DNA of 39,889 bases from Bacteroidota bacterium (GCA_003153435.1 PLYR01000049.1:1-39889), one strand, 5' to 3'. Shown: positions 268-39,889, counted from the stretch's first letter. Notes: generated by a model from the letters alone, not told the origin. Numbers and translations: made by a program.

Positions 268-2061
268 TTAACCTTTTTCAGTTACATATCTGCCAGGGGC
301 AGGTTCGATCACAGGAAACTCTTTGCTCCCTTCTGCAACAGGTGCTGGAATTTGTTTTCCTGATTTATCGCTCATCCATTGCTCCCAACTAAGCCACCAG
401 CTTCCTTCGCCTTGTTTGGCTGTTTTCTGCCAGGTTTCAAACCCTTCTCCCAGTTTTCCGCCAAACTTAAAGTTGTATTTGTGTTTCACAGAAGGTGCAT
501 TAATTGCACCCATGATGTGACCAGAATCTCCTAAGATGTATTCAACGGGACCGCTAATCAGTTCCGTAGTGGTGAAGGCTGTTCTGCAAGGAGCAATATG
601 GTCTTCAATGGTACCGACAACATAGGCTGGAACATCAATTCTTCCTAAATCAAGCGGAACATTAAACATTCGAAGTGCATTTTTTATCCGGAGTTTATTT
701 TCAAACAACATATTCCGGAGGTAATAGGTATACATTTTTCCAGGCAGGTTTGTGTTGTCGGCAGTCCAGAATAAAACATTGAAAGCAGAAGGGTTCTTTC
801 CTTTGAGGTAGTTATTGGAAACATAATTCCATACCAGTTCATTTGCACGAATGGTATTGAACGCCTGGGCCATGTCAGACCCTTTTAACACTCCTCCTGT
901 AGAAAGTTCTTTTTCAAGTTTAGTGACCAGAGCTTCATCAATAATGGCTCCCATAGGTCCGATGTCTGTAAAGTCGAGCATGGTAGCCAGGAAGGTAACT
1001 GCATTCACAGTATTCTTCTCTGCATCAGCAGCAGGGAATGTTTTTTCTTTTGTCTTCAGTATGGAAAGTGTCATTCCAAGCAAGGTGCCGCCCAGGCAAT
1101 ATCCAAGAGCATTGACCTGTTTGGAGCCACAAATTTTACGTGCCACTTCAAACGCCTTAATGGCTCCCTTTTCTATGTACTCTTCGAAACCGAGGTACCC
1201 CATTGCGGAGGTTGGGTTTTTCCAGGAGATCATAAATACAGTCTGACCTTTTTTAACTGCAAATTCCACCAGAGATTTATCAGGGTGAAGGTCGAGTATA
1301 TAATATTTATTTATCCAGGGTGGAAGTATGACTAAAGGTAATTCAGCAACCTTCTTGGTCAGAGGCGTGTACTGAATCAACTGCATGATTTCATTTTCAA
1401 AAACAACAGACCCTTTTGTAATAGCAAGGTTTTTTCCTACTTCGAAAGCCTGATCATCAGTCTGAGTGATACGTCCTTTCTGCATATCAGAAAGCAAATT
1501 CTGAAACCCATCAATAATGCTCTGCCCTTTCGTATCAGCAGCAAGCTTGAGAGCTTCAGGATTAGTTATGAGAAAGTTGGATGGAGCCAGTGCATCAATC
1601 CATTGTTTGGTATAAAAATTAAGCTTTTCCTTTGATTTTGGATCAAGATCAACAGAGTTGAATATTTCCGTAATCAGTTGGGATATGAGTAGGTAATTCT
1701 GTTTGATAAAATCAAAATAGTAAGGAGATTCATCCCATTCCGGAGCTGAAAACCTGCGGTCTCCTGCAGGCGGGCTGATCACCGGAGTGTAGCTTTTTTC
1801 TTTGTCCAATTGCCTCTCAGCAATTCGTTTAGAAAGCTCAATCTGACTCTGCAAGAAATTAAGGTAGCTGGTCTGGGTTTTTTGGATTGCGTCTTTATCA
1901 GAAACCAATTTACTGGATACCTGAAGATAAGAGGAAGCGAATTCCTGGTATGTCTTCATATATTCAGGGAAATTAGCAATATAATTCTGGGCAAGCTCCT
2001 GTCCGGCCTTAGCCATCTCGCTCGTCAATTCCTGTAACTTAGCTGCTTCCATCTTGTCCAT
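268..2061 (-). CDS. phaC: Class I poly(3-hydroxyalkanoate) synthase
   Basis: The 597-residue product has the length and layout of class I PHA synthases, which polymerise (R)-3-hydroxyacyl-CoA on the surface of storage granules. Residues 1-100 are a helical N-terminal domain. An alpha/beta-hydrolase core follows, with the lipase-like box GYCLGG placing the nucleophile at Cys322. The partners are Asp487 (in GTIEDH) and His515 (in GDSGHI). Both the spacing and absolute positions nearly match the Cys319/Asp480/His508 triad known from the Cupriavidus necator enzyme. The C-terminus contains the conserved tryptophan-rich run GSWWLSWEQWM. It is followed by a phaB-like reductase and preceded by two phasin-like genes, all on the minus strand, so the cluster forms a storage locus. 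The start at 2061 gives a normal N-terminus. No Shine-Dalgarno sequence is evident. Confidence 0.95.
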   Translation of the reverse strand: MDKMEAAKLQELTSEMAKAGQELAQNYIANFPEYMKTYQEFASSYLQVSSKLVSDKDAIQKTQTSYLNFLQSQIELSKRIAERQLDKEKSYTPVISPPAGDRRFSAPEWDESPYYFDFIKQNYLLISQLITEIFNSVDLDPKSKEKLNFYTKQWIDALAPSNFLITNPEALKLAADTKGQSIIDGFQNLLSDMQKGRITQTDDQAFEVGKNLAITKGSVVFENEIMQLIQYTPLTKKVAELPLVILPPWINKYYILDLHPDKSLVEFAVKKGQTVFMISWKNPTSAMGYLGFEEYIEKGAIKAFEVARKICGSKQVNALGYCLGGTLLGMTLSILKTKEKTFPAADAEKNTVNAVTFLATMLDFTDIGPMGAIIDEALVTKLEKELSTGGVLKGSDMAQAFNTIRANELVWNYVSNNYLKGKNPSAFNVLFWTADNTNLPGKMYTYYLRNMLFENKLRIKNALRMFNVPLDLGRIDVPAYVVGTIEDHIAPCRTAFTTTELISGPVEYILGDSGHIMGAINAPSVKHKYNFKFGGKLGEGFETWQKTAKQGEGSWWLSWEQWMSDKSGKQIPAPVAEGSKEFPVIEPAPGRYVTEKG

Positions 2062-2138
2062 GTTGATGTTTGTTCTTTAAGTATTGTCGGTTATTATTTG
2101 GGTGAGCAAAGGAACGATTTTTTTCGCTAAAGAAACAG

Positions 2139-2204
2139 AAGGCCTAATAGCAAACACCTCATTCCGGGATGATTCCGGAACGAGGTGCAGCATCTTCAGG
2201 CCTT
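2139..2204 (-). terminator. Large hairpin between the phasin genes and phaC
   Basis: An inner stem pairs CACCTCATTCCGG (2155-2167) with CCGGAACGAGGTG (2175-2187) over a 7-base loop, with one imperfect position that becomes a G-U wobble in minus-strand RNA. An outer pair AAGGCCT (2139-2145) and AGGCCTT (2198-2204) can extend it. In minus-strand RNA the structure is followed by a moderately U-rich run (ctgtttcttt). It lies 65 bases after the phasin stop and 78 bases before the phaC start. It would act as a terminator or partial attenuator, letting phasins be made in excess of synthase; this role is inferred. Confidence 0.6.
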
Positions 2205-2268
2205 TAGCCATATAAAATTAACGGAAGTTTAATAAGCCAGTAGCCTAAAACATGCTCCTACTGTAATA

Positions 2269-2865
2269 TCAAGCCTTTTCCTTGTGGCTTTGTTTCCACC
2301 AATCAGAAGCCCATTCGGTGAATTTGTTCAGTCCTTTGGTCTGGATTGAAAACAAAGATTCAAGCTGGGAATTGATTGTTTCTCCGAACTTCTCGTTGAA
2401 ATTCAAAGCAAGGTTAGTATGTCTGTTATAGAAATCAAGGATTTCCTTGGTATTCTTAATAGTCAGTTGACGGGATGCTTCAAAGTTATCCTGGATAAGT
2501 TGAAGGACCTTGTCATAATTTTTGCCATCAGATTCTTTGATTGCATCTACCAAACGCGTGTTGAAATCTACGTTCAGCTCCATCTGACGCGTGTAAGAGT
2601 TAATGATGCTGTCAAGTGTATCCTCAGCAAGCTCAATGGATTTCCCAAAAGTCTTTTTCATGCTGGTGGTCACAGAATCATCGATAGCCTGCTCATCGAG
2701 TTGTTTCTTAATAGAATCAACCAGTTTCTTATTAGAATCAAGAGCAGATCCAAGATATTTTGAGTTTGTGTCAATCAGTTCGCGGATAGTTTCTTTTGAT
2801 TTTTCCGCAGTGCCGTTAATGATCCCTTTGATCTTCTCGGCTTTTTCATTCAATGTGGTTTTCAT
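2269..2865 (-). CDS. Phasin-like PHA granule-associated protein
   Basis: The product has 198 residues, no signal peptide and no membrane segment. It is rich in Lys, Glu, Ser, Thr and Asn, and appears almost wholly alpha-helical with long amphipathic stretches. The C-terminus has the aromatic segment FTEWASDWWKQS, similar to the ends of many phasins. Phasins coat PHA granules and control their number and size. I recognise the type from composition, length and position rather than from an exact motif. It sits 20 bases downstream of a second phasin-like gene and upstream of PHA synthase, which strongly supports the role. A hairpin follows the stop codon. Confidence is high for a granule-associated protein and lower for any named phasin subfamily. 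Confidence 0.75.
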   Translation of the reverse strand: MKTTLNEKAEKIKGIINGTAEKSKETIRELIDTNSKYLGSALDSNKKLVDSIKKQLDEQAIDDSVTTSMKKTFGKSIELAEDTLDSIINSYTRQMELNVDFNTRLVDAIKESDGKNYDKVLQLIQDNFEASRQLTIKNTKEILDFYNRHTNLALNFNEKFGETINSQLESLFSIQTKGLNKFTEWASDWWKQSHKEKA

Positions 2866-2885
2866 GTTCCCGTTTTTTTAAATAA

Positions 2886-3602
2886 TTAAATTGTTGTTTT
2901 TTCTTTCTTAGCTGTTCCATTGGTTGCTTTAATGACCGTAGGGGTCTTTTCAGCGGCCTGATTCATAAAATCTGACCATAGTTTCATGTTCTGATTTACC
3001 ATGCTGGTTAATTCCTTATTCAGCCCTGTAAATACCTCCAGTGCACTTTTGCCCTGAGTTTCTGAATGCTTTGTTAAGGTCTCACGGAATGTGTTGAATG
3101 ACTCCTGAGTTGAATGGAAGCTTTTTTCAAAGTCCTTTTTCAGTTTAGCGGTCATCTCTTGTCCGTCTTTGGTTGTTTCTGTAAACTGACTCTGAAGGGT
3201 ATCAGCAAATTTTTTGTTGAATTCTTCAATCGTCTTTGCTTCCTTTACATAGGATTCAAAGAGTTCGTTTATATTTTCTTTTGAAAATGCCTCAGGCCCT
3301 TTCAATTTGCTGAATTTTGTAAAATTTTCGAGCGTGGTCTTGGAGATAGATGCAACACTGTCTAGATTCTTTCGGGTGATCTCTTTCATTTCAGACATGA
3401 GTTTATTCGTTTTCTCAGTCATTTCCTTACCAAGGGTTCCAAATCCTGTATTCAGGCTACTATTCACAATTGCAGAAGCAGACTCAACTTGTTTCATATA
3501 AACATCAGCAGCCATTTTAGTAGTTTCCTGAAACCACTTCATTGAATCGTTCATTGTTTTCTGAAATGATTCCGCACCTTCCTGAAATTTGTCCATGCTC
3601 AT
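2886..3602 (-). CDS. Phasin-like PHA granule-associated protein, first gene of the cluster
   Basis: This 238-residue cytoplasmic protein is predicted to be helical throughout. Early repeats of the type FQKTMNDSMKWFQETTKMA and a long Lys/Glu/Thr/Ser-rich amphipathic middle are typical of phasins. A short basic end (residues about 218-238: Thr, Lys, Ala, Pro) resembles tails seen on some phasins and nucleoid-associated PHA proteins. It is the promoter-proximal gene of the PHA cluster, with an exact TATCTTTG promoter box 63 bases upstream of the start. The two phasin-like proteins share composition but not an obvious alignment, so they look like separate paralogues or functionally distinct coat proteins, not a recent duplication. 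The nearest alternative is a generic coiled-coil protein, which the context makes unlikely. Confidence 0.75.
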   Translation of the reverse strand: MSMDKFQEGAESFQKTMNDSMKWFQETTKMAADVYMKQVESASAIVNSSLNTGFGTLGKEMTEKTNKLMSEMKEITRKNLDSVASISKTTLENFTKFSKLKGPEAFSKENINELFESYVKEAKTIEEFNKKFADTLQSQFTETTKDGQEMTAKLKKDFEKSFHSTQESFNTFRETLTKHSETQGKSALEVFTGLNKELTSMVNQNMKLWSDFMNQAAEKTPTVIKATNGTAKKEKTTI

Positions 3603-12243: not shown

Positions 12244-12251
12244 TACTTTTG
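12244..12251 (+). promoter_or_regulatory. Bacteroidota -7 box for the YfiR-TPR-phosphatase operon
   Basis: TACTTTTG matches TAnnTTTG exactly. The start of transcription would be near 12258, giving a leader of about 80 bases to the chosen start at 12340. An AT-rich run with TTTTTTAG lies where a -33 element is expected, but it is not a clean match. Confidence 0.5.
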
Positions 12252-12339
12252 GTTGTTCAGAAACAGCTTTTCCTCCTAATCAAATCAAACTTCGGTACGG
12301 CTGAAGGAAATGAGAGAGCCGGGTTCTGTTTTGCAGACT

Positions 12340-12867
12340 ATGAGAAAATTGCTGTTCATCATTATGGGCTTTCTTATTCTTTCTGCATTCCAGCAGAGAG
12401 AAGATGCGGCCATTATGAACGCACATGTCAAGGCTATTTTCCTTTACAATTTCACTAAACAAATTGAGTGGCCCTCTGATTATAAGAGCGGAAATTTTGT
12501 AATTGGTGTTTACGGAACTTATGTGCCTCTTCTCAATGAACTAAATAAGATGGCCAGTACGAAAACCGCTGGTACTCAGAAATTCGAGATTAAGGAGATT
12601 ACCTCCATCGAGAGCGCTGCTAAGTATCACATTTTGTTTGTTTCTACAGATAAGATGGCGCAGTTCGGTGAAATAACCTCAAAGCTTAAAGGACATGGTA
12701 CATTGCTTGTTACGGAAAAGGAAGGAATGACGAAGAAAGGCTCAGCCATTAACTTTGTAGTGGTTGACAGTAAGATAAAATTTCAGCTAAGTAAGACAAA
12801 TGCTGAAAAGCAACAATTAAAGGTTAGTCGTGATTTGGAAGCTTTTGCAGTAAAAGAGAATGATTAA
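12340..12867 (+). CDS. YfiR family (DUF4154) periplasmic protein
   Basis: The chosen start at 12340 gives MRKLLFIIMGFLILSAFQQ, a normal Sec signal peptide; the in-frame ATG at 12310 would put ten polar residues in front. The mature part of about 155 residues shows the YfiR/DUF4154 pattern: AHVKAIFLYNFTKQIEWP near the N-terminus, FVIGVYG, the ISSxxxAxxxHILFVS-like strand (here YHILFVST), GTLLVTE, and INFVVVDSKIKFQLS near the end. In Pseudomonas aeruginosa YfiR is a periplasmic repressor of the HAMP-GGDEF protein YfiN. Here the gene overlaps the next one by 8 bases and shares an operon with a HAMP-PP2C phosphatase, so it may be that protein's periplasmic regulator (inference). Confidence 0.85.
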   Translation: MRKLLFIIMGFLILSAFQQREDAAIMNAHVKAIFLYNFTKQIEWPSDYKSGNFVIGVYGTYVPLLNELNKMASTKTAGTQKFEIKEITSIESAAKYHILFVSTDKMAQFGEITSKLKGHGTLLVTEKEGMTKKGSAINFVVVDSKIKFQLSKTNAEKQQLKVSRDLEAFAVKEND

Positions 12868-13774
12868 ACGATCAAAATATCTCCTGCTGATTGCACTATT
12901 CTGTGTTTGCGGAAGCATGCGCATTACTGCACAAAAGAATGCAGATTTTGTGGCTGCACTAAATTATGTGAACCTTAAACAGGCCGACAGTGCACGCGCT
13001 CGCGTTGATAAAGCCATGCGCGATTCTGTCGTTGCAAAAGATGCTCAATCATGGTATGTGAGAGGATTTATTTACAAATTTTATTATGTAAATAAAGAGG
13101 CTGATAACCAAACCTCTCCAGCTCGTGCGGAGGCGCTCCGTTCTCTGAGGAAGGGTCTTTCCATGTTGCCAGACACCGCTAAAACATTAAGAGAGTCTAT
13201 TAATCTTCAAATGAAATCACTCGCAGCGAAATATCATAACGATGCGGCAAGATCATTGGATACATCCAATTACAAAATACCTGTTCAGAATTTTGCCATA
13301 TATATGGACATCATGAAGCAGATTGAACCTGGCATGAACCTAAAACCTGCGGAGATAGAGATTAATCTGGCTCTTTCAGCTATTTATTCAAGTTTGTATA
13401 CTGCAAGTCCTAAAACCAGAGCGAATATTCTCGAAATGAACAAAGCAGCGCTTCTAAAGGTGTTGAGCCTCGATCCAAACAATGTTAGCGCGAACTACAA
13501 TATGGGGATATTGTATTATAATCAGGCGGTTTTTCTGATTAATAATTCGGATTATGAGACCCCGCTTACCTCTTTGAATGGTATTCAGGATGACCAGGTA
13601 CAGCTTTTTAAACAATCCCTTCCATTCACCGAAAAGGCGTATCAACTCAACCCCAAAAAGGAAGAGACCTTACAGGCTCTTTCTGGCATTTATTTTGGGT
13701 TGAATGACTATGACAAGTCAAAACTGTTTCAGGAAAAGCTCGATGAGCTGAGAAAAGAACAGAAAAAACATTAA
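12860..13774 (+). CDS. Secreted TPR-like protein of the YfiR-phosphatase operon
   Basis: The 304-residue protein has a signal peptide ending near RITAQ and then an all-helical region. Repeat-like helical pairs occur at about residues 30-60 (ALNYVNLKQADSARARVDKA), 185-215 (ILEMNKAALLKVLSLDPNNVSANYN) and 250-300. The last two carry the tetratricopeptide hallmarks of a DPNN-type turn and YNMGILYYNQA. TPR arrays bind protein partners. The start codon lies inside the end of the preceding gene (ATGATTAA overlap), so the two are translationally coupled. The next gene follows after 39 bases. It is probably periplasmic and could be an adaptor between the YfiR-like protein and the membrane phosphatase (inference). 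I recognise no enzyme motif. Confidence 0.75.
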   Translation: MIKRSKYLLLIALFCVCGSMRITAQKNADFVAALNYVNLKQADSARARVDKAMRDSVVAKDAQSWYVRGFIYKFYYVNKEADNQTSPARAEALRSLRKGLSMLPDTAKTLRESINLQMKSLAAKYHNDAARSLDTSNYKIPVQNFAIYMDIMKQIEPGMNLKPAEIEINLALSAIYSSLYTASPKTRANILEMNKAALLKVLSLDPNNVSANYNMGILYYNQAVFLINNSDYETPLTSLNGIQDDQVQLFKQSLPFTEKAYQLNPKKEETLQALSGIYFGLNDYDKSKLFQEKLDELRKEQKKH

Positions 13775-13813
13775 TTGATCGCTAGTATCAATTGACAGAC
13801 CTTAGAAACCACT

Positions 13814-15628
13814 ATGAAGTTTAGATTTTCTATTGGGCGTAAGATCAGTTTAGGCTTCGCAATTCTCATCATCCTTACGCTGATAGGTTTTGGTGCTACT
13901 TTGCTCACTCTGAAAACGAGCAGTAATATCAACAGGGAAATCACCCAATTGTACACCCCCTCTGTAGGTGCTTTACGTGAACTGAGTCTGATGGTAGTCA
14001 GATCTAAAATGCTTATAGAGAACTGGCTTCATACTCCGAAAGATAGTGAAGACAAAGGCAAGCTCAAAAAACTCCTCCAGGGTGAATATCCGGAACTGAA
14101 AGATAAAATACTCAACCTTGCTTACAATAAGACCAAGGAAGTTAATTTACCCGAGTGGAATGACTCCGCAAAGGCTGAGATTATGGCAATCTTAAGCCTT
14201 TCAGAGAAACTTTGGGATGCTCAGAGGGATGTCATGTCACAACTTAATTCCTTCGACAGTTATCAGGATGCGATGCTGACTATGACGAATCAGAACGAAG
14301 TGGAAGATGTTGATGGAAGTATCAATGTTGAAACTCGACTGATCCTGACCAAACTGGATGCGTTGATTGCCCGTCAGCAGAAGAGTGCTACAGACAAGAG
14401 TGAAGAAATGCGGTTTTCATTTCAGAATTTGCAGACGGTAGTAATTACCCTAGGTATTGCCCTTCCTCTCGGAGGAATTTTGATTGCATTGTTCACCGTG
14501 CAAACCATAGTCAGGCCAATCAAAGAAATCCGCAAGATAATTCTTGATATGGGGATTGGTTATATGCCTAAGCAAAAGATCAAGAACAGGAATGATGAAA
14601 TAGGGGAAATGTCTGTTGCTCTGAACGGATTAATTGATGGTCTTAAGTCAACTATAGAATTTGCTGATGAAGTCGGGGCTGGAAACTTTGACTCCTATTA
14701 TAAACCGCTAAGTAGTGAGGATGCCTTGGGACATGCACTCCTGAAGATGCGTACTGATCTTGCTGAAAATGAACGTATCCTTGAAGCCAAGGTGATTGAA
14801 CGCACAGAAGAGGTGGTCCGGCAAAAAGAAGAAATTGAAATTCAGAGTGGAAAGCTTCAGATTCTCTATAAACATGTTACAGACAGTATACGATATGCTA
14901 AGAGGCTTCAAGACGCAATACTTCCTCCGGTTACTGTAGTCAAACAACTCCTCCCGGATTCATTTATTCTCTTTAAACCCAAGGATATTGTAAGTGGAGA
15001 TTTTTATTGGTTAAATAAAAAAGGAAACCGAATACTTGTAGCTGCTGTCGATTGTACCGGTCACGGCGTACCGGGGGCGTTCATGTCACTCGTTGGGAAT
15101 AATATGCTGAATCAAGTTGTTAAGGATAATGAGGTCATTGATGCAGGCGATGTGCTTAATAAATTAAATACGCTTGCTGCCGCAACCATAAGCCAGAAGT
15201 CGGAAGATGGAGCGATTCGGGATGGAATGGATCTTACGCTCTGTATCATTGATCAGGAGAACATGACTCTGGATTACGCCGGTGCCAATAACCCGCTCTA
15301 TTTTTTCAGAAATGGGGAATATCAGGAAGTAAAAGCTGATAAATTTCCAATTGGATATTACTCAGAGGTTGCAAAGAGTTTTACCAATAAGAAATTGAAA
15401 ATTCAGAAAGGTGATACCTATTACATATTCTCCGATGGATATGCTGATCAATTCGGCGGCCCGAAAGGGAAGAAATTTATGGTTAATCAGTTCAGAAGTC
15501 TCCTGAACCGTATTCATAAACTCCCGATGGATAAGCAAAAGGAGATTTTGAATCAGACTATTGAAACTTGGAGAGGTGGCCTGGAACAGGTTGATGATAT
15601 ACTCCTTATTGGTTTCCGCTTCAGTTAA
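13814..15628 (+). CDS. Transmembrane HAMP-PP2C (SpoIIE-type) serine phosphatase
   Basis: The 604-residue protein has a membrane segment at about residues 11-32, a helical periplasmic region (33-206) resembling the four-helix bundle of chemoreceptors, and a second membrane segment at 207-230. A HAMP domain (231-283) starts with VRPIKEI and includes the DEIG motif. A coiled coil (about 315-352) follows, then a SpoIIE/PP2C phosphatase from about 360 to the end. The phosphatase shows DSIRYAKRLQDAILP, GDFYWL (Asp396), DCTGHGVPGA (Asp413), DGMDLT, SDGYADQFGG and DDILLIGF. These enzymes remove phosphate from serine, usually on anti-sigma antagonists. The membrane sensor layout and the upstream YfiR-like and TPR genes suggest a periplasmic signal controls the cytoplasmic phosphatase. 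It converges with the MaoC gene (12-base gap). Confidence 0.9.
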   Translation: MKFRFSIGRKISLGFAILIILTLIGFGATLLTLKTSSNINREITQLYTPSVGALRELSLMVVRSKMLIENWLHTPKDSEDKGKLKKLLQGEYPELKDKILNLAYNKTKEVNLPEWNDSAKAEIMAILSLSEKLWDAQRDVMSQLNSFDSYQDAMLTMTNQNEVEDVDGSINVETRLILTKLDALIARQQKSATDKSEEMRFSFQNLQTVVITLGIALPLGGILIALFTVQTIVRPIKEIRKIILDMGIGYMPKQKIKNRNDEIGEMSVALNGLIDGLKSTIEFADEVGAGNFDSYYKPLSSEDALGHALLKMRTDLAENERILEAKVIERTEEVVRQKEEIEIQSGKLQILYKHVTDSIRYAKRLQDAILPPVTVVKQLLPDSFILFKPKDIVSGDFYWLNKKGNRILVAAVDCTGHGVPGAFMSLVGNNMLNQVVKDNEVIDAGDVLNKLNTLAAATISQKSEDGAIRDGMDLTLCIIDQENMTLDYAGANNPLYFFRNGEYQEVKADKFPIGYYSEVAKSFTNKKLKIQKGDTYYIFSDGYADQFGGPKGKKFMVNQFRSLLNRIHKLPMDKQKEILNQTIETWRGGLEQVDDILLIGFRFS

Positions 15629-31232: not shown

Positions 31233-32294
31233 ATGTTAAACATTGTTTTATTCGGTCCCCCAGGTGCTGGCAAAGGCACACAGTCGAAAAAACTGATTGA
31301 CAAGTATCATCTCATTCACCTTTCAACAGGTGATATTCTTCGGGCTGAAATTGAACAAGGTACCTATCTGGGTCTTGAAGCTAAACAACTCATGGATCAG
31401 GGTATCCTGGTTCCTGACCATATCGTAATAGGCATGATCCGGAGTAAACTGGACTATAATAAACATGCCAACGGTTTTATCTTTGATGGTTTTCCGCGTA
31501 CTATCGCCCAGGCTGAAGCACTTGATAAACTCCTTGCTGAGAGAAATACAACAATACACATGATGCTCGCGCTGGAGGTGGAGAAAGAAGAACTCCTGAA
31601 GCGGATGCTTGGACGTGCCATGGAATCAGACCGGGCAGATGATAAAGACACTGTGGTTCACCAAAGGAGAATCGATATTTACAATAAGGAAACTGCGCCT
31701 TTGAAAGATTTCTACTCTGCCCAGGGCAAATTCTATTCTGTCTACGGAGTAGGAAGCGTAGATGAAATATTTGATGAACTCTGTAGTGTCATAGACATGA
31801 GTCAGGGCAATGCACATGGGTCTCATTCTATTGTGGATGATTATCCCCGTCACTATAACCCTGTGGTGATTCATCCTGATTCACCAGAAGAAGCCAAGCA
31901 ACGCAAAGTGGCAGCAGAAAAAGAAATCAAAGCTGGATTCAATTCCAGGAAAGAAGAAACAGCCCCAGTACGGAACACCTTTGTTCCTAAGCCTGCAGCG
32001 AAAGCTCCGGCTAAACCGGAAGTCAAAAAGGCTTCACCAGCAAAGGCTGTTAAGAAAACCGCTCCTAAAAAAGTAGCACAGAAAAAGGTGGCAAAAAAGG
32101 TTGTTAAGAAAACTGCACCTAAGAAAGTAGCAAAAAAGGCAGCACCTAAGAAAACAGCACCCAAAAAGAAGGTTGTCGTCAAAGCAAAAAAAGCAAACCC
32201 TAAGAAAGCTTCCAAACCGGCCCCGAAAAAAGCAAGCAAGTCTGTGACCAAGAAGAAGGTTGCTAAACCTGCAAAGAAAAAGGGTAAACGTTAA
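31233..32294 (+). CDS. adk: Adenylate kinase with a long lysine-rich, histone H1-like C-terminal tail
   Basis: Residues 1-190 are a complete short-LID adenylate kinase: the P-loop GPPGAGKGT (8-16), STGDILR, GFIFDGFPRT, LGRAMESDRADD and VVHQRRIDIYN. It converts ATP and AMP to two ADP. A linker follows (about 191-250), and the last hundred residues are low-complexity repeats such as KKTAPKKVA and KKAAPKK. I count 42 lysines in residues 251-353, the rest mostly Ala, Pro and Val, as in histone H1 tails and bacterial AlgP or Hc1-like proteins. The tail is in frame with no break, and codons look native. It might hold the enzyme on DNA, RNA or polyphosphate (inference). A hairpin follows the stop. 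Confidence 0.95.
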   Translation: MLNIVLFGPPGAGKGTQSKKLIDKYHLIHLSTGDILRAEIEQGTYLGLEAKQLMDQGILVPDHIVIGMIRSKLDYNKHANGFIFDGFPRTIAQAEALDKLLAERNTTIHMMLALEVEKEELLKRMLGRAMESDRADDKDTVVHQRRIDIYNKETAPLKDFYSAQGKFYSVYGVGSVDEIFDELCSVIDMSQGNAHGSHSIVDDYPRHYNPVVIHPDSPEEAKQRKVAAEKEIKAGFNSRKEETAPVRNTFVPKPAAKAPAKPEVKKASPAKAVKKTAPKKVAQKKVAKKVVKKTAPKKVAKKAAPKKTAPKKKVVVKAKKANPKKASKPAPKKASKSVTKKKVAKPAKKKGKR

Positions 32295-39412: not shown

Positions 39413-39511
39413 ATCAAATTGAAAAGACAGCTTGGTCGCTAATGCTTGATTTGCCAGAATATAACCTTTTATCAAAGGCAAATTGCTGGTTTTCAGCATA
39501 ACAGAGTCTGT

Positions 39512-39889
39512 TCAATAAACTGTGTCACAAAATACAGACTCTGCTTCTCCATAAACACACTCTACTTCTTCATAAATACACTCTGCTTCTTCATAAACAC
39601 ACTCTATCTCTTTATAGATACACTCTGCTTCTCTATAAACACACTCTGCTTCTCTATAAATACACTCTACTTCTTCATAAACACACTCTATCTCTTTATA
39701 GATACACTCTGCTTCTCTATAAACACACTCTGCTTGTTCATAGATACACTCTGCTTCTCTATAAATACACTCTACTTCTTCATAGATACACTCTGCTTCT
39801 CTATAAACACACTCTACTTCTTCATAGATACACTCTGCTTCTCTATAAATACACTCTGCTTCTCTATAAATACACTCTACTTCTTCATA
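39512..39889 (-). CDS. Possible C-terminal part of a heptapeptide-repeat protein encoded by the array
   Basis: On the minus strand one frame stays open from the right edge through the whole array and ends at a TGA (39512-39514) after a unique tail (ESVFCDTVY). It reads as seven-residue repeats of Tyr-[Arg/Glu/Lys]-Glu-[Ala/Val/Ile]-Glu-Cys-[Ile/Val], about 17 in the window. A cysteine every seventh residue and an acidic character would be unusual. Against coding: one plus-strand frame is open too (Thr-Leu-Leu-Leu-[Tyr/His]-[Lys/Arg]-[His/Tyr]), and differences between units fall on first and second codon positions as well as third. Any start codon lies beyond the edge. I rate this a possibility only. 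Confidence 0.2.
   Translation of the reverse strand, partial: YEEVECIYREAECIYREAECIYEEVECVYREAECIYEEVECIYREAECIYEQAECVYREAECIYKEIECVYEEVECIYREAECVYREAECIYKEIECVYEEAECIYEEVECVYGEAESVFCDTVY
39538..39889. repeat. Strict 21-bp tandem repeat array (minisatellite) running off the right edge
   Basis: Sixteen complete units and one partial unit follow each other with no spacer, every one exactly 21 bases long. The consensus is ACTCTGCTTCTCTATAAACAC. Positions 1-5 (ACTCT), 14-16 (ATA) and 20-21 (AC) do not vary; nearly all changes elsewhere are transitions (G/A, C/T). Three main variants appear: GCTTCTCTAT, ACTTCTTCAT and ATCTCTTTAT at positions 6-15. A higher-order pattern is visible: units 4-5 equal units 8-9 (84 bases apart), and units 12 and 14 are identical (42 bases apart), so the array grew by copying blocks. 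The period, a multiple of three, leaves one frame open on each strand. The array has no separating unique spacers, so it is not CRISPR. Its right end is outside the window. Confidence 0.97.

Follow-up and report, generated by a model that had tools for sequence, protein, structure and literature searches.

In Pseudomonas, YfiR-type proteins and the Sia switch both feed cyclic di-GMP and biofilm control. The YfiBNR/TpbB system of P. aeruginosa serves here as the comparison system for the former (PMC2837407, PMC4655355). In the Sia pathway of the same species, T68 of SiaC is dephosphorylated by the phosphatase SiaA and phosphorylated by the kinase SiaB, and unphosphorylated SiaC activates the cyclase SiaD (PMC7647112, PMC8457831, PMC12834913). 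We analyzed a stretch of 39,889 nucleotides from a Bacteroidota bacterium (GCA_003153435.1, PLYR01000049.1:1-39889; hereafter the window), in which three consecutive plus-strand genes at 12310-15628 encode a DUF4154/YfiR-like protein, a TPR protein, and a phosphatase with HAMP and SpoIIE/PP2C domains. Judging from the sequences, there is good support for the coupling of a YfiR-like periplasmic input to a phosphatase output, because the gene order is conserved and DUF4154-PP2C fusions occur. It is also likely that the triad constitutes one envelope-to-cytoplasm unit, in which a SiaA-type phosphatase would act on SiaC.

Conservation of the triad and fusions of DUF4154

To define the distribution of the triad, a class sample of 295 genomes was searched with the DUF4154 protein of the window, which gave relatives in 112; about 100 DUF4154 loci were extracted, and their neighbors were classified by profiles made from the window proteins. 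The DUF4154-TPR-HAMP/PP2C run was present in 78 loci, from about 20 families by count from the table, with gaps of -58 to +53 bases (mostly -8 to +24) between the DUF4154 and TPR genes and mostly 0 to 50 between the TPR and phosphatase genes, and the genes flanking the triad varied between lineages. A second collection, consisting of named genome contigs and partly overlapping the first sample (some contigs being identical), had the run in 75 of 80 loci; the remaining five lacked the DUF4154 gene wholly or partly, and at least four of them were truncated, or nearly so, at the end of a contig. The genomes with the triad are nearly all metagenome-assembled Bacteroidota, with labels including Flavobacteriales, Cytophagales, and Bacteroidia, and a few labels, such as Bifidobacterium breve and Saccharibacteria, look like those of mislabelled bins. 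The triad gene order is far beyond chance, and conservation of this order in Bacteroidota, which the initial annotation of the window had set beforehand as a check, was thus confirmed.

In eight additional loci (L118-L125), DUF4154 and PP2C were found in a single polypeptide, in which hydropathy indicated the order of DUF4154, a long coiled coil, one transmembrane segment at about 307-361, a coil, and PP2C. These fusions are natural evidence, at the level of sequence, that the YfiR-like domain serves a phosphatase receptor as its input on the periplasmic side. One of these loci (L119:6263-12168) is a tandem of a DUF4154-PP2C fusion, a DUF4154-class III cyclase fusion, and a TPR-class III cyclase. 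The layout of its DUF4154-class III nucleotide cyclase fusion is the same as that of the DUF4154-PP2C fusion, indicating that DUF4154 is a portable domain for periplasmic input.

The DUF4154 and TPR proteins could instead be merely co-expressed with the phosphatase and have independent envelope roles with no regulation of it, considering that the contact between DUF4154 and the phosphatase is inferred and that other DUF4154 genes in the class adjoin TonB receptors. This is quite improbable, however, because near-zero gaps are kept in the 78 loci despite changing neighbors, and the fusions with PP2C and with the class III cyclase place DUF4154 at the input end of a transmembrane receptor, in the periplasm. 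The distances of the sensor and of DUF4154 were also correlated when the catalytic domain was held constant, with a partial r of 0.48, which is weak evidence and agrees with a possible co-evolution of DUF4154 and the sensor.

The SiaA-type phosphatase and SiaC as its probable substrate

The locus comprises the following features.

12244-12251, plus strand: Bacteroidota-type -7 promoter-like box TACTTTTG (TAnnTTTG), by sequence pattern
12340-12867 (frame opens at 12310), plus strand: YfiR-like DUF4154 periplasmic protein, by PF13689 (1.5e-30), relatives, and an N-terminal hydrophobic core
12860-13774, plus strand: TPR superhelix protein, predicted to be secreted, by TPR_17 (7.6e-7) and an AlphaFold2 model
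13814-15628, plus strand: SiaA-like membrane receptor phosphatase (sensor bundle, HAMP, coiled coil, and PP2C), by SpoIIE (7.7e-19) and NF038263 SiaA (3.2e-68)
13850-14494, plus strand: first transmembrane segment (residues 13-31), periplasmic helical bundle, and second transmembrane segment (residues 209-227), by hydropathy and AlphaFold2 (long helices 7-73 and 169-247)
14495-14647, plus strand: HAMP domain (residues 228-278), by PF00672 (E 0.02, under the Pfam cut-off, with correct placement)
14723-14920, plus strand: cytoplasmic coiled coil that connects HAMP and PP2C, by AlphaFold2 (helix 304-369), with strong conservation in triads
15023-15622, plus strand: PP2C/SpoIIE catalytic domain of the SiaA type, with the metal-site motifs GDFYW, DCTGHG, SDG, and DDI present

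Pfam and open reading frames placed all three genes where the initial annotation had them, and the 8-base overlap that it had reported between the DUF4154 gene end and the TPR gene start is exact. The DUF4154 gene probably starts at the second ATG, encoding 175 amino acids, because close relatives (173-176 amino acids) begin there. Both the DUF4154 and TPR proteins have an export-type N-terminal segment by hydropathy, and no lipobox was found in the latter. The TPR protein was modelled as all-helical (predicted local distance difference test score, pLDDT, of 93.8), and the model gave only generic TPR-like matches in the PDB. The promoter box, also claimed earlier, is present, but the TAnnTTTG pattern occurs 38 times on the two strands of the window, so that the box alone is weak evidence.

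The two membrane segments, periplasmic helical region, HAMP, coiled coil, and SpoIIE/PP2C domain described for the phosphatase were recovered by hydropathy, AlphaFold2, and Pfam, with HAMP below the threshold. The AlphaFold2 model consists of a helical bundle between the transmembrane segments, a HAMP region, a long coiled coil, and a PP2C fold, the sensor being all-helical; its mean pLDDT of 83 and predicted template-modelling score of 0.45 make the domain orientations unreliable. In the PP2C domain, D396, D413, D541, D594, and D595 were invariant among 64 triads. The NCBIfam model of SiaA (NF038263) matched residues 279-603, and the full-length SiaA architecture including the sensor was unmatched (230.8 bits vs a cut-off of 700), the best match beginning at 279, past HAMP. 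When compared with solved structures, the PP2C domain was closest in sequence to SiaA (6k4e; 120 bits, 1.3e-33), followed by SpoIIE at 28 bits, and closest in fold by Foldseek to the same SiaA PP2C domain (E 8e-19; template-modelling score 0.89), followed by RssB (2.5e-11).

Six SiaC and five SiaB genes were found in the genome of the window, and its canonical SiaC matched P. aeruginosa SiaC at 2.6e-21 and kept the NTSS phosphosite motif. In relatives, SiaB and SiaC adjoin the phosphatase gene run in three arrangements. They directly precede the triad in a single genus (L087 and L088, with SiaB alone, as an open frame, in L103) and directly follow it, with gaps of about 5-75 bases, in Cytophagales-type metagenome-assembled genomes (L240, L241, L258, and L259), and L194 has the order DUF4154-PP2C-SiaB-SiaB-SiaC. 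By our own rough estimate, which assumes about four SiaB-SiaC pairs and 3000 genes per genome, such linkage would be expected by chance in about 0.1-0.2 genomes per 100. Moreover, SiaC was present in 76 of the 76 triad genomes compared with 97 of the 219 others in the class sample (Fisher p 4e-22). No triad was seen at the loci of the seven readable genomes (G012, G024, G067, G103, G111, G219, and G291) of the nine that have DUF4154 and lack SiaC, with G103 and G111 covered partly and G033 and G119 not included; the DUF4154 gene in the seven has mostly TonB-receptor or kinase-like neighbors.

The initial annotation had expected serine dephosphorylation with STAS proteins as candidates, leaving the target open. 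Such a target, through which the phosphatase would control a partner switch (of the anti-sigma or another kind) in the manner of RsbU and SpoIIE, would be in line with the assignment of the catalytic domain to the SpoIIE Pfam family and with three STAS domains in the genome, two of them in small frames of 118 and 129 amino acids. It is nevertheless rather unlikely, since SiaB and SiaC adjoin the DUF4154 and phosphatase genes in three arrangements in relatives, no STAS gene turned up there (the neighbors not having been systematically scanned for STAS), the sequence and fold of the PP2C domain are closest to SiaA and not to SpoIIE or RsbU, and the SpoIIE/RssB-like phosphatase of the genome is another one (L003). 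The most likely substrate, as judged from these comparisons, is a SiaC-type threonine phosphoprotein rather than a STAS protein phosphorylated on serine, and the target once left open is now suggested to be SiaC by the SiaA-type PP2C domain, the linkage to SiaB and SiaC in relatives, and the presence of SiaC in all 76 sampled triad genomes.

Several observations weigh against the assignment to SiaC or against the triad as one unit. The triad of the window is not adjacent to SiaB or SiaC in its own genome, and the association of the triad with SiaC in 76 of 76 genomes is uncorrected for phylogeny. Ten further SpoIIE-family proteins were sampled from the window genome, and nine of them also reached 167-230 bits with the SiaA model; because the SiaA type is general in the lineage, the domain type alone does not assign SiaC to the window phosphatase, and it is the gene-run linkage in relatives that carries the argument. 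A PP2C tree, meant to group the triad with the phosphatases linked to SiaB and SiaC, was poorly resolved, and the triads did not form one clade. In addition, a DUF4154-TPR pair is without a following phosphatase gene in L114:5162-6771, the only clear departure from the triad, and DUF4154 and the phosphatase are without a TPR gene in L194, indicating that not every part of the triad is indispensable.

The genome of the window (4.0 Mb) contains 42 SpoIIE/PP2C domains vs 6 SiaC, 5 SiaB, and 3 STAS. In this genome, a large number of phosphatases may act through a small number of switches.

A proposed route to SiaC effectors without cyclic di-GMP

A search for GGDEF domains was negative in all 30 triad genomes tested (the window genome and 29 others) and positive in control genomes, and therefore no SiaD-type cyclase is available in those genomes. 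Together with the gene order and the fusions, this agrees with the earlier proposal that the YfiR-like regulator is coupled to a phosphatase and not to GGDEF.

In the Cytophagales-type runs, SiaC is followed by an open reading frame (ORF6) of 168-183 amino acids with a coiled coil and a hydrophobic C-terminal half, the L258 copy of which has no Pfam match. ORF6 carries K/R-V-S-D-K-L-Q, and the residues of the SiaD stalk reported to touch SiaC include R80, I81, S82, D83, R84, Y85, and Q86. Of the 295 genomes, 25 had relatives of ORF6, which lie directly 3' of SiaC at most examined loci, and many of them have [S/G]-D-R-[L/M]-Q at the equivalent place. The coiled-coil membrane proteins of this type, listed by their position after SiaC and the SiaD-like motif, are as follows.

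L240:9831-10337
L241:7197-7706
L258:9837-10349
L259:7688-8239
L291-L310

A comparison of ORF6 with the PDB gave chance-level matches only and no SiaD. The ORF6-type protein is, by its position and motif, the best candidate for the SiaC effector where it is present, replacing the diguanylate cyclase. No relative of ORF6 was found in the window genome; a search there for an effector by a strict SiaC-binding-motif pattern gave 13 matches, the sole in-frame one being in a universal-stress-type protein and probably due to chance.

In the mechanism that we propose, the DUF4154 and TPR proteins would, after export, affect the helical-bundle sensor of the phosphatase from the periplasmic side, presumably by contact, and a change in the sensor would reach the SiaA-type PP2C domain by way of HAMP and the coiled coil. 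This domain would presumably dephosphorylate a SiaC-type protein at its conserved threonine, reversing the action of a SiaB-type kinase, and SiaC without phosphate could then bind its effector. The sign of control is inferred, and repression by the YfiR-like protein is an assumption. Extended to the phylum, the proposal is evenly balanced for and against: separate or fused YfiR-type domains may gate SiaA-type phosphatases in a widespread Bacteroidota route to the SiaB/SiaC switch, without cyclic di-GMP, in which SiaC would act on undescribed coiled-coil membrane proteins with the SiaD motif. If this is true, the YfiR-type input and the Sia switch could each be a portable module, joined where no GGDEF is found; a function could be assigned to a large set of Bacteroidota DUF4154, TPR, and PP2C genes; and SiaC would be a testable target for some of the approximately 40 phosphatases per such genome.

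Elsewhere in the window, a PhaC-like polymerase with phasin-like genes (268-3602, minus strand) and an adenylate kinase-like protein with a long Lys/Ala/Pro-rich, histone H1-like C-terminal tail (31233-32294) were recognized by eye. A short repeat array, open on both strands and with units such as INTLYFF and CIYREAE, occupies 39446-39889, up to the window end.

Comparison with the YfiBNR and SiaABCD systems

The triad resembles YfiBNR in that a DUF4154/YfiR-type periplasmic protein is encoded with a HAMP-type inner-membrane receptor. The window DUF4154 protein scored 14 bits against the NCBIfam YfiR equivalog (cut-off 85) and 108 bits (3.3e-31) against NF053591 YfiR_like_TOL0243 (cut-off 125), and phmmer found no relative of it with a solved structure. 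The output is PP2C in the triad, whereas it is GGDEF in YfiBNR. YfiN carries CHASE8, whereas no match to CHASE8 was obtained in five triad sensors and the model of the triad sensor is a bundle composed of helices only. No gene for a YfiB-like OmpA lipoprotein was found in the triad run, which has the TPR protein where YfiBNR has the OmpA-like lipoprotein YfiB. The disulfide-forming cysteines of YfiR are not matched in the window DUF4154 protein, the mature form of which contains no cysteine, and 66 of 76 triad DUF4154 proteins have at most one. The redox and sequestration mechanism of YfiBNR is therefore not transferable.

A strict YfiBNR system, in which a DUF4154 repressor is sequestered by an outer-membrane partner (here the TPR protein) and controls cyclic di-GMP, would share the periplasmic family of YfiR and a HAMP membrane partner with the triad. 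It is highly improbable: its cyclic di-GMP part is refuted by a genome without detected GGDEF, the TPR protein has no lipobox, and the fused forms are incompatible with release and sequestration, so that sequestration of the YfiB type is not a safe assumption here. Strict membership in YfiBNR was thus set aside on the lack of GGDEF, a YfiB-like gene, CHASE8, and cysteines. Of the initial idea of a phosphatase version of YfiR/YfiN, the phosphatase output stands, but the receptor is not simply YfiN with a phosphatase.

In other Bacteroidota, DUF4154 genes that adjoin a histidine kinase or a TonB receptor share the periplasmic domain as an input component and differ from the triad in the output and in being without a TPR gene of the triad family. 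One of them (L134:3780-7647) lies 1 base upstream of a CHASE8-HAMP-PAS histidine kinase and represents a histidine-kinase version of the YfiR/YfiN pair.

No paper describing the triad run, and none containing both YfiR and SpoIIE, was found in the open-access literature, where DUF4154 and DUF1987 each appear in a single paper. Similarly to SiaABC, the triad phosphatase is a HAMP receptor with two transmembrane segments and a SiaA-type PP2C domain, SiaB and SiaC are present in the window genome, and the Cytophagales-type runs have the order SiaA-like, SiaB, and SiaC. The triad differs from SiaABCD in its sensor domain and in two added periplasmic proteins (DUF4154 and TPR), no SiaD/GGDEF protein was found in triad genomes, and some relatives have an ORF6-type protein with a SiaD-like stalk motif in the position of SiaD. 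Taken together, the YfiR-type input and the SiaABC-type pathway are each known, and their union without cyclic di-GMP is new.

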